Assembly: GCA_016217545.1 (NCBI GenBank)
Contig: JACRHT010000012.1
Coordinates: 744,001-808,000 of the forward strand
Length of the DNA stretch: 64,000 bases
From: Opitutia bacterium
GTDB lineage: Bacteria; Verrucomicrobiota; Verrucomicrobiia; Opitutales; Opitutaceae
Reading direction: 5' to 3'
The notes under the pieces were generated by a model that saw nothing but the letters and a program-made list of their open reading frames with translations, did not search any database and was not told the DNA's origin. A program made the translations under genes and the position numbers. Each line of letters begins with the position of its first letter. The stretch's first letter is position 1. Of the stretch, positions 31,183 to 58,537 are shown piece after piece.

Positions 31183-31353
31183 GTAGGCAGCGTGCTGGCG
31201 CGCGCCCCACCGATCGCCGCGGCGGAAAAATGGCGCGCCCAAGGTCGCTGCCTACCCGAACCACGAACGGTAGCCGGGGTCGCTGACCCCGGTTAAAAAG
31301 ACCTTCGCCGAACAAACCGGCTTCGCCCGACCGGGCTCAGCGAGCCCGGCTAC
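31183..31353. repeat. Composite REPIN-like repeat (class A + class B), copy 1
   Basis: Element A (31183-31255) starts GTAGGCAGCGTGCTGGC and ends GCTGCCTAC. After 14 bp, element B (31270-31353) starts GTAGCCGGGGTCGCTGACC and ends CCCGGCTAC, each end with its own hairpin. The same A-14 bp-B arrangement and orientation recurs at 34920-35086. It occupies almost the whole space between holA and the convergent solenoid gene. Confidence 0.9.
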
Positions 31354-34919: not shown

Positions 34920-35086
34920 GTAGGCAGCGTGCTGGCAGCGCCCAACGGATCGTCGCGGCGGAAAATGGCGCGACCAAGGCTGCTGCCTACCTGAACCGTA
35001 AGCTGTAGCCGGGGTCGCTGACCCCGGGAGAAAATATTCGCCGACCAAGACGGCTTCGATCAACCGGGCTCAGCGAGCCCGGCTAC
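34920..35086. repeat. Composite REPIN-like repeat (class A + class B), copy 2
   Basis: Element A (34920-34990) and B (35005-35086) repeat the organisation of copy 1 with the same 14-bp spacer and similar inner sequence. With the REP doublet, the two occupy most of the 448-bp gap between DUF3142 and ppnP. Copies 1 and 2 lie in direct orientation and enclose the two-gene DUF3142/solenoid unit. Confidence 0.9.
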
Positions 35087-53322: not shown

Positions 53323-55119
53323 ATGACCGATTCCGCCAACATTGCCCGCCACCTGCCGCTGATGGCGGCGCGCCAGCCGGATCATCCCGCCGTGAAAATT
53401 CCGCGCGGCCGCACGCGCGACGGTCGCATCGACTACCTCACGCTGTCGTTTCGCGAACTCGATGCCGAAGTCGACGCCTGGGTCGCGCACCTCGCGGCCA
53501 AGGGCGTGCGCCGTGGCGACCGCGTGCTCGTGATGGTGCGCCAAGGCCTGCCGCTCATCGCCGCGGCATTCGCGCTCTTCAAGCTCGGCGCTGTGCCCGT
53601 GATCATCGATCCAGGCATGGGCAAGGAGAGTTTTCTCGCCTGCGTCGCGCGCTCGCGTCCGCGCGTGCTGCTCGGCATCCCGCTCGGCCAGTTTTTCAGC
53701 TACATCCACCGCGCGGCATTTTCGTCCATCGAGGTGCGCGTCTGGGCCAGCGGCTCTTCGACCGCGCGCCGCACTTCCCGCGCGCAACCCTCGACGCTCA
53801 ACTCTCAACCCGCCCCGCTCGCGGCCACCGCTCCCAACGATCTCGCGGCCATCCTCTTCACCAGCGGTTCCACCGGCGCGCCGAAGGGCGTTTGCTACGA
53901 GCACGGCATGTTCGACGCGCAAGTGCGGCTCGTGCGCGACACCTACGGCATCCAGCCCGGCGAGGTCGACCTGCCGATGTTGCCGATCTTCGCGCTGTTC
54001 AACCCCGCGCTCGGCATGACGACCGTCGTGCCCGAGATCGATCCGTCGCGCCCCGCGACCGTCGACCCGGCGAAAATCATCCAGGCGATCCAGCAGGAGA
54101 AAGTGACGAACTCATTCGGTTCGCCGACCCTTTGGCGCAAAATCGCCGCGCACGCGAAAGCTGAGAACATCACGCTCCCGACGATGAAGCGCGTGCTCAT
54201 GGCCGGCGCGCCCGTGCCACCGGGACTTTTCGCGGACGTGCAATCGCTCCTCCCCAACGGCGCGGCCCACAGCCCCTACGGCGCCACCGAGTCGCTGCCG
54301 ATCGCGTCGATCTCCGCCGCTGAAGTGCTGGGCGAAACCAGCGTCGCTTCGCTCGCTGGCGAGGGCACGTGCGTCGGCCGCCCGGTGTGCGAGATCGAGG
54401 TGAAGATCATCGCCCTCACCGACGCCCCGCTCGCGACCCTCGCCGATGCCCGCGAGCTGCCGCCCGGCGAGATCGGCGAAATCATCGTGCGCGGCCCGGT
54501 CGTCACGAAACTCTACGACGCGCTCCCGGAAGCCACCGCCGCAGCCAAAATCGCCGCGGCAAGTTCCGAAGTTTCAAGTCTCAAGTCTCAAGAAGGAGAT
54601 CCCGGCGAGGCTCTTGTCACTTGTTCCTCGTCACTTCCCACTTCCGGCGCGCTGCGCGCGCCGGTCTGGCACCGGATGGGTGACGCCGGTTACCTCGACG
54701 CCAAGGGTCGCCTCTGGTTCGTCGGCCGCAAAGCCGAGCGCGTCGAGATGCGCGACGGCACGCTGTTCCCCGATCAGGTCGAGCCGATCTTCAATCAACA
54801 TCCCGACGTTCGTCGCACCGCGCTCATCGGTCTCGGCGAGCGCGGCGCACAGCGCCCCGCCATCGTGGCCGAACCGGTTTCACGCGAAGTCGTCGCCACG
54901 CCGTCGCTGCGCCGGAAACTGGTGCGCGAATTGCGTGCGCTCGCGGTGGGGCGGCCGCACACCGACCGCATCCGGCTCGCGTTCCTGCATCCGAGTTTTC
55001 CCGTCGATGTGCGCCACAACGCCAAGATCCACCGACTCGCGCTCACCAAGTGGGCGGAGCACACGACAGGCTACGAACTCGACAAACGCGACGTGCCGAT
55101 CGAGTCGCTGAAGCGATGA
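53323..55119 (+). CDS. oleC: OleC-type AMP-dependent ligase (beta-lactone synthetase)
   Basis: The 598-residue adenylate-forming enzyme is assigned to olefin biosynthesis because of its partner oleD and overall likeness. OleC converts 2-alkyl-3-hydroxy acids to beta-lactones, which are decarboxylated to long-chain olefins. The P-loop ILFTSGSTGAPKG, YGATES, GDAGYLD and the C-terminal Lys region NAKIHR are present. Two stretches are unusual low-complexity insertions: residues about 150-165 (RRTSRAQPSTLNSQPAP) and about 415-445 (SSEVSSLKSQEGDPG...CSSSLPTSG). Both are encoded by heptamer-tandem DNA. No oleA or oleB is in the window. Confidence 0.85.
   Translation: MTDSANIARHLPLMAARQPDHPAVKIPRGRTRDGRIDYLTLSFRELDAEVDAWVAHLAAKGVRRGDRVLVMVRQGLPLIAAAFALFKLGAVPVIIDPGMGKESFLACVARSRPRVLLGIPLGQFFSYIHRAAFSSIEVRVWASGSSTARRTSRAQPSTLNSQPAPLAATAPNDLAAILFTSGSTGAPKGVCYEHGMFDAQVRLVRDTYGIQPGEVDLPMLPIFALFNPALGMTTVVPEIDPSRPATVDPAKIIQAIQQEKVTNSFGSPTLWRKIAAHAKAENITLPTMKRVLMAGAPVPPGLFADVQSLLPNGAAHSPYGATESLPIASISAAEVLGETSVASLAGEGTCVGRPVCEIEVKIIALTDAPLATLADARELPPGEIGEIIVRGPVVTKLYDALPEATAAAKIAAASSEVSSLKSQEGDPGEALVTCSSSLPTSGALRAPVWHRMGDAGYLDAKGRLWFVGRKAERVEMRDGTLFPDQVEPIFNQHPDVRRTALIGLGERGAQRPAIVAEPVSREVVATPSLRRKLVRELRALAVGRPHTDRIRLAFLHPSFPVDVRHNAKIHRLALTKWAEHTTGYELDKRDVPIESLKR
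53785..53811. repeat. Heptamer tandem inside oleC, first tract
   Basis: Four consecutive 7-nt units (CAACCCT, CGACGCT, CAACTCT, CAACCC) are translated in frame as part of the PSTLNSQP insertion in OleC. Confidence 0.75.
54561..54647. repeat. Heptamer tandem inside oleC, second tract
   Basis: The left block has 7-nt units AAGTTTC, AAGTCTC, AAGTCTC; the right block has CTTGTCA, CTTGTTC, CTCGTCA, CTTCCCA, CTTCCGG. The two face each other in imperfect inverted orientation about 20 bp apart. The whole is translated in frame as the Ser-rich insertion near residue 425. Confidence 0.78.
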
Positions 55120-56237
55120 AGGATGCGGTCTTCATCACCGGCGCGAGCGGCTTCATCGGCGGCAAGATCGCCGAGCGCCTCCTCGCCGCCGGACGCGAAG
55201 TGCGCGTGCTAGCGCGCCGCCCGTTGCCCGAGCTCGAAAAGCTCGGCGCACGCATCGTGCCCGGCGATCTCGACGACACCGCCGCGCTCGCACGCGGCAT
55301 GGAGGGCGCCGGCACGGTCTTCCACGTCGCCGGACGCGTCGGCGTGTGGGGGCCGGAGCAGGAATTTCTCCGCGTCAATGTCGAGGGCACGCGCCACGTG
55401 ATCGCCGCCTGCCGTGCCGCGCGCGTGCCGCGGCTCGTCTACACGAGTTCGCCGAGCGTCGTGTTCAACGGCGGCGACCTTGCCGGCGTCGACGAAGCCG
55501 CGCCGCTCTGCACGCAAGCGCCCTGCGCCTATCCCACGAGCAAGGCCGCCGCCGAGCGTCTCGTCACCGCCGCCAACGACGCCACGCTCGCAACCGTTTC
55601 GCTCCGCCCTCATCTCGTTTGGGGGCCGGGCGACAAGAACATCATCCCGCGCGTGCTGAAACTCGCGCGCTCCGGTCGCCTGAAAATCATCGGCGCCGGC
55701 CGCAATCTCGTCGACTGCACCCACATCATCAACGTCGTCGACGCCCACCTCCTCGCCGAGCGCTCCCTCTCCCAGTCGGCCTCCGCCCCCCAGCCGAGTA
55801 ACCCAATAGGTTACCCGATGACGACTCCCTCGAGTGAAAACGGGGGGCGCACGTCCGACAACGGTAACCTATTAGGTTACTCAGGAGCAACGGCGGGCGA
55901 CCCACGCGGGCGGGCCTATTTCATCACCAACGGCGAGCCGGTGGTGCTGTGGGATTGGATCAACGAGCTGCTGCGCGGTTTCGGTGAACCACCGGCGACG
56001 AAGCACATCTCGCTCGCGACGGCATATCGCGCGGCCGGCGTGCTGGAGTTTCTGTGGCGCGTGCTGCCGCTGAAAGGCGAGCCGCCCACGACGCGTTTCG
56101 TGGTGAAGGAGCTGGCGACCGACCACTGGTTCAAGATCGACGCCGCCCGCCGCGACCTCGGCTACGCACCGCGCGTCTCGATGGCTGCCGGCACGGCGGA
56201 ACTGGTCGCGCACTACCGCGCCGGGAATCAGTTTTAG
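55116..56237 (+). CDS. oleD: OleD-type NAD(P)H-dependent 2-alkyl-3-oxoacid reductase
   Basis: The 373-residue extended SDR has FITGASGFIGGKIAERL at the N-terminus and the catalytic YPTSKAAAE. It is similar to the 3-beta-HSD/OleD family that reduces the 2-alkyl-3-ketoacid made by OleA. The start overlaps the oleC stop (ATGA), fixing the operon. Residues about 228-256 (SNPIGY...GNLLGYS) are encoded by an 87-bp palindromic element inserted in frame between VVDAHLLAERS and RAYFITNGEP. Its end overlaps the convergent TrmH-family gene. Confidence 0.87.
   Translation: MKDAVFITGASGFIGGKIAERLLAAGREVRVLARRPLPELEKLGARIVPGDLDDTAALARGMEGAGTVFHVAGRVGVWGPEQEFLRVNVEGTRHVIAACRAARVPRLVYTSSPSVVFNGGDLAGVDEAAPLCTQAPCAYPTSKAAAERLVTAANDATLATVSLRPHLVWGPGDKNIIPRVLKLARSGRLKIIGAGRNLVDCTHIINVVDAHLLAERSLSQSASAPQPSNPIGYPMTTPSSENGGRTSDNGNLLGYSGATAGDPRGRAYFITNGEPVVLWDWINELLRGFGEPPATKHISLATAYRAAGVLEFLWRVLPLKGEPPTTRFVVKELATDHWFKIDAARRDLGYAPRVSMAAGTAELVAHYRAGNQF
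55796..55882. repeat. 87-bp in-frame palindromic element in oleD
   Basis: The left arm GAGTAACCCAATAGGTTAC is matched by a right arm complementary except for one base (GTAACCTATTAGGTTACTC). Each arm also forms its own GTAACC/GGTTAC hairpin. The length is 87 bp, 29 codons, encoding SNPIGY...GNLLGYS without a stop. The arms are markedly AT-richer than the gene around them. Confidence 0.93.
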
Positions 56238-57088
56238 CCGTTCCGCTGCCGCACCGCTTCGAAGAGCGTGATGATCGTCGCCATGGCGACGTTGAGCGAG
56301 TCGGCCTGGCCGGCCATCGGGATGCGCACGAGCACGTCGCTGTTCTTCATCCAGAAATCACTCAGGCCATACTGCTCGCTGCCCATCACCACCGCGAGCG
56401 GCCCGCACAGATCGGTCTTCGTGTAAATGTTGTCCGTATGCGGCGTCGTCGCCGCCGTGCGAATGCCCTTCGCCTTCAGCCACGCGTGCACGGTCGGCGA
56501 GTCGGCGACGACCACGGGGACGGAAAACAGCACGCCGGTGGAGGCGCGCACGACGTTCGGGTTGAAGAGGTCGGTCACTGCGTCGCACAGGATGAGTGCG
56601 TCGCAACCTGCGGCGTCCGCGCTGCGCAGGATCGTGCCGAGGTTGCCGGGCTTCTCGATGGACTCGCAGACGAGCAGGAACGGCGCTTTCCCTGTAGCCG
56701 GGGTCGCTGACCCCGGACCGGCCTCACCGAGGTCGGCTACAAGCAGGTCGTCGAGCGAGCGTTTCCACTGCGGCGCCACGGCGAGCAAGCCGTCCGGCCG
56801 CTCGCGATAGGCGCACTTGGCAAAGGCGTCCTTCGACAGCTCGAACAGCTGCGCGCCACTCGCGCGCGCCTGCTCGATGAGCGCGGGCTCGTTTTCGCCG
56901 AGGAACCAGTCGGGGGAGAAATAGAGTTCCCGCAGTTTGACGCCCTTCTCGAGCGCCCGGCGCACCTCGCGGTAGCCTTCGACAAGGAAAAGCCCCAACT
57001 CGTCGCGCTCCCGCCGCTCGCGCAGCCGCACGAGCTGTTTCACGCGCGGATTCTGAAGGCTGGTGATTTTTTCGACGAAGGGACCCAC
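56234..57088 (-). CDS. TrmH/SpoU-family RNA methyltransferase
   Basis: The 284-residue SPOUT enzyme methylates ribose 2-OH of rRNA or tRNA. The three motifs are visible: KPGNLGTILRSADAAGCDAL, VVMGSEQYGLSDFW and IPMAGQADSLNVAMATI. The N-terminal L30-like substrate-binding domain is present. Between it and the catalytic domain, the residues [17 protein letters not shown] are encoded by an in-frame REPIN-type insertion. It starts at GTG within a short-unit repeat, and its stop overlaps that of oleD in convergent orientation. Confidence 0.9.
   Translation of the reverse strand: MGPFVEKITSLQNPRVKQLVRLRERRERDELGLFLVEGYREVRRALEKGVKLRELYFSPDWFLGENEPALIEQARASGAQLFELSKDAFAKCAYRERPDGLLAVAPQWKRSLDDLLVADLGEAGPGSATPATGKAPFLLVCESIEKPGNLGTILRSADAAGCDALILCDAVTDLFNPNVVRASTGVLFSVPVVVADSPTVHAWLKAKGIRTAATTPHTDNIYTKTDLCGPLAVVMGSEQYGLSDFWMKNSDVLVRIPMAGQADSLNVAMATIITLFEAVRQRNG
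56693..56741. repeat. In-frame REPIN-like class B element inside the TrmH-family gene
   Basis: The 49-bp element TGTAGCCGGGGTCGCTGACC...TCGGCTACA shares its ends with the class B elements at 31270-31353 and 35005-35086. The spacer is nearly absent, so it is a compact doublet. It is translated (in the minus-strand frame) as [17 protein letters not shown]. Confidence 0.85.
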
Positions 57089-57170
57089 GCACCCACGGAA
57101 GACACGGATGCGAGCCCCAGCAATTTCCTTTTACCGGCCCCTTCCGTGTGTTCTGTGTGTGCCGTGGGCC
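57081..57170. repeat. Short-unit inverted repeat between divergent methyltransferase genes
   Basis: The left block reads GGACCCACGCACCCACGGAA, and the right block has a 9-nt period (TTCCGTGTG, TTCTGTGTG, TGCCGTGGG). They pair imperfectly. The element spans the entire gap between the two divergent RNA methyltransferase genes and provides both GTG start codons. Confidence 0.65.
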
Positions 57171-58537
57171 GAAACAAGAAATTCAACGACCATCCCTTCC
57201 CGTATCGCACCGAGCTCGAACTGGAGATCTCCACGCTGACCAACCTCGGCGTCGGGCTCGGCCGCGTCGATATCGAGGGCGGCCGCTGGGTCGTGATGGT
57301 GCCGTTCACGCTGCCGGGCGAACGCGTGAAGGCTCGCGTTTACCGCAACCACAAGAATTTTTCCGAAGCCGATATGCTCGAGGTGCTCACGCCGTCGCCG
57401 CATCGCATCGCACCCACGTGTCCGCTCTTCGGTCGCTGCGGCGGCTGCCAATACCAGCACCTCACCTACGCCGAGCAACTCGCCTGGAAACGCCGCCAAG
57501 TCGAGGAGCTGCTCCGCCACATGGCCGACGTCGAGTTCCCCGTCGCGCCCACCGTGCCCTCGCCCTGCGAATACGGTTACCGCTCGAAGATCACGCCGCA
57601 CTTCCATGTCGGTCGCCCCGACGACCCGCGCACGCCGCCCGCGGCCGAGACTCCCATCGGTTTCCTGAAACAAGGCACGCGATTCGAACTCGTGGACGTG
57701 CCGGCGTGTCCGATCGCCACGCCCGAGATCAACGCCAAGCTCCCCGAAGTCCGCGCGCGCACGCGCCAGCGGCTCGCGGCGGGCGAGTTCAAGCGCGACG
57801 CCACGCTCCTCCTCCGCCACGCGCAGGAAGGCGTCATCACGGACTACGACGCCGTGATCCACGAGGTGATCGCCCCCGCGGCGAGTAACCCAATAGGTTA
57901 CGCGAATCGGGAGGCTCCGAGTGGGGATGGTGCGAGCGCGAACGAGGGCGGTAACCTATTGGGTTACTCGGCGGCGGGCGGCGGGGCGCCGTTGCGCCTG
58001 CACTTCCTGGCGCGGGATTTCTTTCAGAACAATCCGTTCATCCTGCCGGCGTTCACCGGCTACGTGCGCGAGCAGGCGAAGGCCAGCGGCGCGCGCTTCC
58101 TCGTCGACGCCTACTGCGGCAGCGGACTCTTCGCGCTGAGCTGCGCGCCGGCGTTCGAGCGCGTGGCAGGTGTGGAGGTGAGCGAAACCTCGGTGAAGTT
58201 CGCGCGCGAAAACGCCGCCGCCAACGGCATCGCCAACGCGGCCTTCTCCGCGGGCGACGCCGCGACGATCTTCGCCGGACTCGACGCGTCGTTCGTGCCC
58301 GCCGACACCGCGGTGGTGATCGATCCGCCGCGCAAGGGCTGCGACGAGTCGTTCCTCGCTCAGGTATTCACGTTCGGTCCGCGCGCGGTGGTCTATGTCT
58401 CGTGCGATCCGGCGACGCAGATGCGCGATCTGAAGAGTTTCCTCGCCGCCGGCTACGAGCTGACGGCGGTGCAGCCCTTCGATCTGTTTCCGCAGACGCG
58501 CCACCTCGAGTGCGTGATCACGCTGCGCAAGAAGTGA
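57146..58537 (+). CDS. TrmA/RlmD-family uracil-5 RNA methyltransferase
   Basis: The 463-residue SAM-dependent methyltransferase has a TRAM-like N-terminal domain (TLTNLGVGLGRVDIEGGRWV), a 4Fe-4S cluster motif (CPLFGRCGGC, CX5CX2C, plus VPACPIA), SAM motif VDAYCGSGLFALSC, IDPPRKGCDE and the catalytic Cys in YVSCDPATQMRDL. It should make m5U in rRNA or tRNA. A 29-residue insertion (SNPIGY...GNLLGYS) sits between the central domain and LRLHFLARDFFQNNPF. In-frame GTG codons at 57146, 57155 and 57164 are all possible starts; all lie in repeat DNA. Confidence 0.93.
   Translation: MCSVCAVGRNKKFNDHPFPYRTELELEISTLTNLGVGLGRVDIEGGRWVVMVPFTLPGERVKARVYRNHKNFSEADMLEVLTPSPHRIAPTCPLFGRCGGCQYQHLTYAEQLAWKRRQVEELLRHMADVEFPVAPTVPSPCEYGYRSKITPHFHVGRPDDPRTPPAAETPIGFLKQGTRFELVDVPACPIATPEINAKLPEVRARTRQRLAAGEFKRDATLLLRHAQEGVITDYDAVIHEVIAPAASNPIGYANREAPSGDGASANEGGNLLGYSAAGGGAPLRLHFLARDFFQNNPFILPAFTGYVREQAKASGARFLVDAYCGSGLFALSCAPAFERVAGVEVSETSVKFARENAAANGIANAAFSAGDAATIFAGLDASFVPADTAVVIDPPRKGCDESFLAQVFTFGPRAVVYVSCDPATQMRDLKSFLAAGYELTAVQPFDLFPQTRHLECVITLRKK
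57883..57969. repeat. 87-bp in-frame palindromic element in the TrmA-family gene
   Basis: The arms GAGTAACCCAATAGGTTAC and GTAACCTATTGGGTTACTC pair perfectly over 19 bp and each can also form its own hairpin. The element is 87 bp, exactly as in oleD, in the same reading frame relative to the arms. The inner 48 bp differ, so this is a family with variable core. Confidence 0.95.

Follow-up and report, generated by a model that had tools for sequence, protein, structure and literature searches.

A REP-like family of DNA palindromes inserted in frame in genes of the Opitutaceae, with an intragenic site shared across genera

The stretch of DNA analysed here, which we call the window, comprises 64,000 nucleotides of an Opitutia bacterium of the family Opitutaceae (assembly GCA_016217545.1, contig JACRHT010000012.1, positions 744,001 to 808,000 of the forward strand). 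Our subject is a short palindromic element that occurs in the window twice, each time as a double hairpin of 87 bp that is read in frame inside a protein-coding gene. The first host is an oleD-like gene of the 3-beta-HSD/NAD-dependent epimerase family (55116..56237, forward strand), recognised by its open reading frame (ORF), by Pfam (3Beta_HSD, residues 7-222, E = 2e-49) and by its homologues; we chose its start, the ATG at 55116, by alignment with homologues, whereas the ORF as listed begins at 55050. The second host, also on the forward strand, encodes a TrmA/RumA-family RNA (uracil-5-)-methyltransferase (57146..58537), as judged from its ORF, from Pfam (tRNA_U5-meth_tr, E = 4.5e-21) and from its match to the RumA structure 1uwv in the PDB (E = 2e-40).

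Copy 1 lies at 55796..55882 on the forward strand and encodes residues 228-256 of the oleD-like protein; copy 2, on the same strand at 57883..57969, encodes residues 247-275 of the TrmA-like protein. Each copy is bounded by two palindromic arms: 55796..55814 (forward, no mismatches) and 55864..55882 (reverse, one mismatch) in copy 1, and 57883..57901 (forward) and 57951..57969 (reverse), both free of mismatches, in copy 2, whose inverted repeat extends outward to 57874 and 57978. A search for the 19-nt arm, GAGTAACCCAATAGGTTAC, with up to three mismatches allowed gives four places in the window (0, 1, 0 and 0 mismatches); 100 shuffles give 0.00 on average. Every arm is a hairpin of its own, of the form GTAACC-N5-GGTTAC, and the two arms of one copy are inverted to each other, with 66 bp between their 17-mers in both copies. 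As single-stranded DNA, both copies fold better than 200 out of 200 shuffles (z = -4.7 and -7.2).

An earlier note on this DNA, made from the sequence alone, had described two 87-bp copies with near-identical arms built on GTAACC, both translated as SNPIGY...GNLLGYS in one common frame. The arm search and the ORFs confirm that description, except that the centre between the 19-bp arms measures 49 bp and not the 48 bp it gave. By eye, the centres of the two copies are unlike apart from a loose CTC..GAG motif. The note also placed the inserts, AT-rich against GC-rich genes, between conserved blocks, and this agrees with the alignments: copy 1 follows residue 222, where the best PDB and Pfam matches end, while copy 2 precedes the Pfam methyltransferase match (residues 291-463) and falls inside the stretch aligned to RumA. 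An AlphaFold model of the TrmA-like protein from its single sequence (mean predicted local distance difference test score 41) is too poor for placing the insert. Homologues that have no insert were found for both genes. The note had named an assembly artefact as one outcome that would overturn it; since a genome of the same genus, which we label G040, has a double hairpin at each of these two places too, the window copies are not such an artefact.

The note had further proposed that the arm be sought in the whole genome and in relatives, and that search reveals a genome-wide repeat lying mostly outside genes. The window's own genome (G000; 5.09 Mb in 17 contigs) holds 46 exact GTAACCN5GGTTAC places, as against none for the reversed control. 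These sites and their near-matches, fetched with flanks, form 39 clusters, of which 19 are pairs, and 15 of those pairs have 65-67 bp between 17-mer starts; a few additional GTCACC-type sites, on contigs C6 and C9, lie outside the 39. The exact core is present in 42 of 150 genomes of the window's family, G000 counted, and a broader core, GTNACNTAATANGTNAC, in 10 of 14 sampled family genomes; in the remainder of the class, 127 genomes were sampled and one has it, in a single place. These survey patterns hold the TAATA centre fixed, so that divergent cores escape them, and many of the assemblies surveyed are fragmented. Among the matches listed for the 19-nt arm are records named Opitutaceae, Opitutia and Verrucomicrobia, together with a single match in Polaribacter that is likely due to chance; records carrying the core include members of Opitutus. 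Short palindromes in many copies, found singly or as inverted pairs, are what is expected of repetitive extragenic palindromes (REPs) and of their paired form, REP doublets forming hairpins (REPINs). The sites are scattered along the chromosome in the single-contig genomes G003, G071 and G075. The 3.6-Mb contig C1 of G040 has few exact cores in its first 1.7 Mb or so and many in the remainder, with the sites crowded in the second half; the GC skew of the fetched G040 pieces is too noisy to interpret this density.

The family differs from genome to genome in both core and geometry. The prevailing pair spacing is 65-67 bp in G000, 54 in G040, 44-45 in G003, 42-44 in G047 and 47 in G068, and the forward matches of one core range from 0 to 44 within a single genus. 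In several genomes one imperfect palindrome is repeated exactly (17 of 24 matches in G133, 9 of 12 in G074, 17 of 21 in G016). The copies of G047 and G068 are alike at their ends and, loosely, in a centre motif, CTC..GAG.GAAA, which is also seen in several G000 copies. A miniature inverted-repeat transposable element (MITE) of a DDE transposon would have terminal inverted repeats together with a target-site duplication; most G047 pairs bear the inverted ends ATTG...CAATG, and no target duplication is visible to the eye.

We compared the 39 G000 clusters with G040 place by place. A hairpin stands at the orthologous place for 25 clusters, 7 have none and 7 are not placeable; orthology was judged by eye from alignments, and since the G040 loci were for the most part selected for bearing hairpins, the unplaced clusters may conceal absences. 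Most of the 32 placed clusters are outside genes. Across 29 of the 38 aligned hairpins, namely those with at least 10 of 17 positions identical, the 17-nt core is 93% identical between the two genomes (460/493) and the flanks are 66% identical (1827/2784); two further hairpins, which lie in a stretch of 97.7% identity, were excluded. That stretch (L036 2643-6001 against L258, about 3.4 kb) stands out from the usual 82-93% between G000 and G040, carries an identical doublet and is likely a recent exchange. In the oleD-like and TrmA-like genes themselves, the pairs are spaced 66 bp in G000 versus 54 in G040.

One of the seven clusters counted as having none, L026, is a special case: opposite the two GTAACC hairpins of G000, the gap at the G040 locus, L301, holds instead two other TAATA-centred palindromes with different stems, and the superfamily may therefore be wider than the GTNAC pattern. 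Separately, the gap beside what we take to be a Dus-like gene, with a presumed aminotransferase-like gene nearby in six cases, carries hairpins in seven genomes (L038, L074, L114, L155, L185, L260, L375), and is an intergenic hot spot that parallels the intragenic ones.

The oleD-like site allows the history of one intragenic copy to be followed more widely. We read it in 70 genomes of the family (30 loci and 40 more that were fetched), and a GTNA..TNAC hairpin is present in 23; G060 has it, G049 and G006 lack it, and G071 has a damaged hairpin. The first hairpin begins at one common codon in 19 of the 23, after trimmed bases were restored in three genomes and with G060 positioned by its protein sequence. 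Six genomes spanning three genera form a clade in which all carry the hairpin. On the protein tree of the 70 rows, from which the linker had been removed, presence requires 14 changes, compared with 20.2 when shuffled (1 of 500 shuffles as low).

The two sides of the stem vary together at this site. In 29 hairpins from 22 genomes, G060 being left out, covariation is 0.525, versus 0.156 in shuffles (0 of 500 as high), and at the four outer stem pairs, which were not used to detect the hairpins, it is 0.674 versus 0.199 (0 of 500). Kinship can lift covariation above shuffles even without structure; slid controls are free of that weakness, and the observed values are far above those as well. Quasi-palindrome correction was considered as the sole cause of this compensation and rejected, on the ground that a single imperfect palindrome recurs unaltered within each of several genomes. 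The palindrome persists in the DNA, but the encoded peptides vary (SNPIGY, CNLLGY, CHIIDD, CHLLSD, CQLIVD, CNHNGY), and so conservation at the oleD site does not lie in the protein.

The oleD core also tends to resemble the other copies in its own genome. In 11 of 17 genomes it equals the genome's commonest core, the commonest being taken by eye among the matches listed, as against a shuffled mean of 1.3 (0 of 20000 as high). The oleD copy is counted among the listed cores, and this weighs in G065 and G018, which have few cores listed; in G040 the pattern surveyed held ACC fixed, and in G023 it excluded the genome's own oleD core, which counts against a match to the local type. Copies therefore either turn over where they stand or re-enter at exactly the old position.

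Copies inside genes are read in a single frame. By a codon-usage test, 8 of the 39 G000 clusters lie in frame within genes. We extended the test to 295 clusters (loci L024-L055, L058-L188, L249-L285 and L336-L415, with duplicates and clusters less than 150 nt from an end dropped), again with codon usage trained on G000. Of these, 56 are flanked on both sides by coding sequence on the same strand: 37 are open in one frame, 7 contain a stop and 12 change the frame. The spacing of doublets is divisible by three in 16 of 16 that lie in frame in genes, compared with 20 of 52 outside genes, which shows a filter for frame in genes; since the hairpin is open in only one of the three frames, this divisibility partly restates the fact of lying in an open gene, and the two doublets that have coding flanks with a stop or a changed frame are also spaced by multiples of three. 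The earlier note had thought the family selected, or filtered, for translation. The filter stands; selection for the peptide does not, given how the oleD peptides vary. Hosts recognised by Pfam include a DEAD_2/Helicase_C_2 helicase, a P-type ATPase, a rhamnosidase, a GH43 enzyme, an exosortase, a methyltransferase and uvrA, among others. In-gene copies sit at one alignment column of the helicase gene in four genomes, and both G000 and G047 have copies in P-type ATPase genes. The uvrA genes of four genomes also hold copies (L404 in G047, L284, L076 and L124). Within in-gene hairpins we find codons that are rare in the genome: CTA (0.7% of the codons for its amino acid), TTA (0.3%) and ATA (1.5%).

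Insertion relative to homologues, copies throughout the genome, a core and a spacing that prevail in each genome examined, sites common to different genera, compensation in the stem and reading in one frame are all direct observations. We read them, with a probability of about 0.62, as the traces of a non-autonomous mobile family of palindromes that resembles REPs and REPINs and hardly occurs outside the family to which the window's bacterium belongs. The superfamily would have a core of about TGTNAYNTAATANRTNACA, with a stem of some 10 bp and a loop of 3-5 nt, occurring either alone or in inverted pairs, the spacing of which is mostly 42-68 bp. It would move, or be exchanged, as DNA, through an enzyme not encoded beside it. 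Copies that land in genes would survive only in a linker and in frame, their encoded residues being a by-product and not the target of selection. A site, once filled, may then serve again, with the version that currently prevails in the genome taking the place of the older copy, so that the element turns over in place.

Several results weigh against this account. Of the 40 Y1 transposase loci examined (10 in G000, 30 in eight other genomes), none has such a hairpin within flanks of up to 1.5 kb, although several have palindromes of their own; among the 30 outside G000, contig ends cut short 10, and 3 are matches below the Pfam cut-off. The G000 hairpin closest to a Y1 gene, on contig C11, is 2.2 kb away. 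No recurring mobility gene is found among 487 ORFs near the sites, nor do we find a clean empty site with exact ends or see a target duplication. The pair centres of G000 are largely unrelated, unlike those of young REPINs, and in 6 of the 17 genomes the oleD core differs from the commonest listed core. The patchy presence at the oleD site, finally, possibly reflects repeated insertion at one spot. A recurrent neighbour gene as the mover was rejected, for the ORF clusters near the sites are ordinary host genes. In a single case, a frame that appears IS110-like from its motif lies about 400 bp from the G047 site L403.

That repeated insertion could be the whole explanation is the rival that fares best, and we consider it rather improbable: many REP-like families would insert independently at a few permissive, sequence-specific hot spots, with no turnover in place and little vertical inheritance. 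The patchy oleD tree, the local core at that site and the one codon in 19 of 23 genomes all agree with it. Against it stand the six-genome clade, positive across three genera, and the 25 of 32 placed clusters common to G040 though the types differ, most of them outside genes; moreover, no common target motif was recognised. It is unlikely, and somewhat more so, that the palindromes are DNA sites selected by the host, such as binding sites of a nucleoid or segregation-type protein whose specificity drifts between genera, tolerated in genes only where harmless. This would account for places kept between species and genera, for cores so much better conserved than flanks (93% versus 66%), for the one or few prevailing cores of the listed genomes, for the rare CTA, TTA and ATA codons retained in genes and for the crowding in the second half of the G040 contig. 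However, the trmA and oleD sites arose by insertion and not by substitution, exact repeats of imperfect palindromes in G133, G074 and G016 point to copying, stem pairs beyond the core covary, pair spacing differs between genomes, and one core ranges from 0 to 44 forward matches in one genus. That the hairpins act in mRNA, in processing, attenuation or stability, is very improbable: strong stem covariation would suit selection for RNA structure, but A-C mismatches are about as frequent as G-T on the sense strand (12 versus 14 in 29 oleD hairpins, 4 versus 3 in 13 G000 in-gene hairpins) and wobble polarity is thus absent, and Rfam at gathering thresholds has no family over the element in 8 loci, its only match being one tRNA elsewhere.

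Returning to the reading of a mobile, REP-like family, we raise tentatively, and as something we would sooner doubt than accept, that the element homes to its own occupied sites, where copies, within genes as well as between them, might be overwritten time and again as a unit, spacing included, by the local version, with the enzyme encoded elsewhere.

In-frame REPs are already known in this group of bacteria. A 2013 study (PMC3733652) describes genes into which GTAG REPs have been inserted in frame, above all in Opitutus terrae and including double insertions in uvrA, and reports that Xanthomonas recB genes carry REPs at roughly one site. The O. terrae REPs are likewise short palindromes, single or as dimers, mostly intergenic with some in frame, the dimers coding for 20-30 residues, and uvrA is a host in both cases. 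The window family differs in having a TA-rich TAATA centre, in not lying beside Y1 transposases and in lacking a GTAG (or CGTC) tag at the stem foot, the commonest feet being GAG, GTG and GGG in G000 and TTG and ATG in G040. In the main text of that paper, figures and supplements lying outside the search, no words begin with GTAACC. The likeness to Rickettsia palindromic elements that the earlier note had sensed is one of behaviour, as those elements are described in the same source: palindromes in frame in unrelated protein genes, here in 37 of 295 clusters. The host phylum differs, and the comparison is one of descriptions. The enterobacterial RU-1/2/3 repeats, as described in a 2007 report (PMC2759123), are also small, MITE-like and translated in some genes; by their description they are set apart by another size class, with units of 103-168 bp.

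REPINs, mobilised with REP-associated tyrosine transposases (RAYTs), are reportedly dispersed inverted palindrome pairs with a spacer, according to a study of 2011, and the window family has this arrangement. Unlike REPINs, it shows no RAYT linkage on test, and the centres of its G000 pairs are largely unrelated. In its workings the element is thus REP-like, yet it does not have the transposase linkage by which REPINs are defined. G000 itself holds several separate REP systems: it has ten Y1_Tnp-type genes (L016-L023, L056, L057), several of them flanked by their own, different palindromes. One GTAG...CTAC REP (GTAGCCGGGGTC...) lies in the window at 56694-56740, inside a SpoU-family gene on the reverse strand (56234-57088) whose frame is open across it, so that three consecutive window genes hold palindromic inserts of two different families. 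The GTAGCCGGGGTC palindrome forms two further inverted pairs in the window, at 31270-31353 (84 bp) and 35005-35086 (82 bp), and a similar palindrome flanks the Y1 transposase locus L018. In the open-licence literature that we searched, itself a weak negative, the GTNAC/TAATA core family, its missing Y1 partner and its persistent intragenic sites with turnover are unnamed.

What the family offers is an intragenic site that can be traced through dozens of genomes, with a palindrome that changes on both arms together and mostly matches the local repeats. The question of how short dispersed repeats stay alike and persist becomes directly testable at the oleD, trmA, helicase and P-type ATPase sites. 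Protein sequence is here written by a constraint at the level of DNA, and if homing were true, protein linkers would change their sequence in step with the mobile DNA of the genome.

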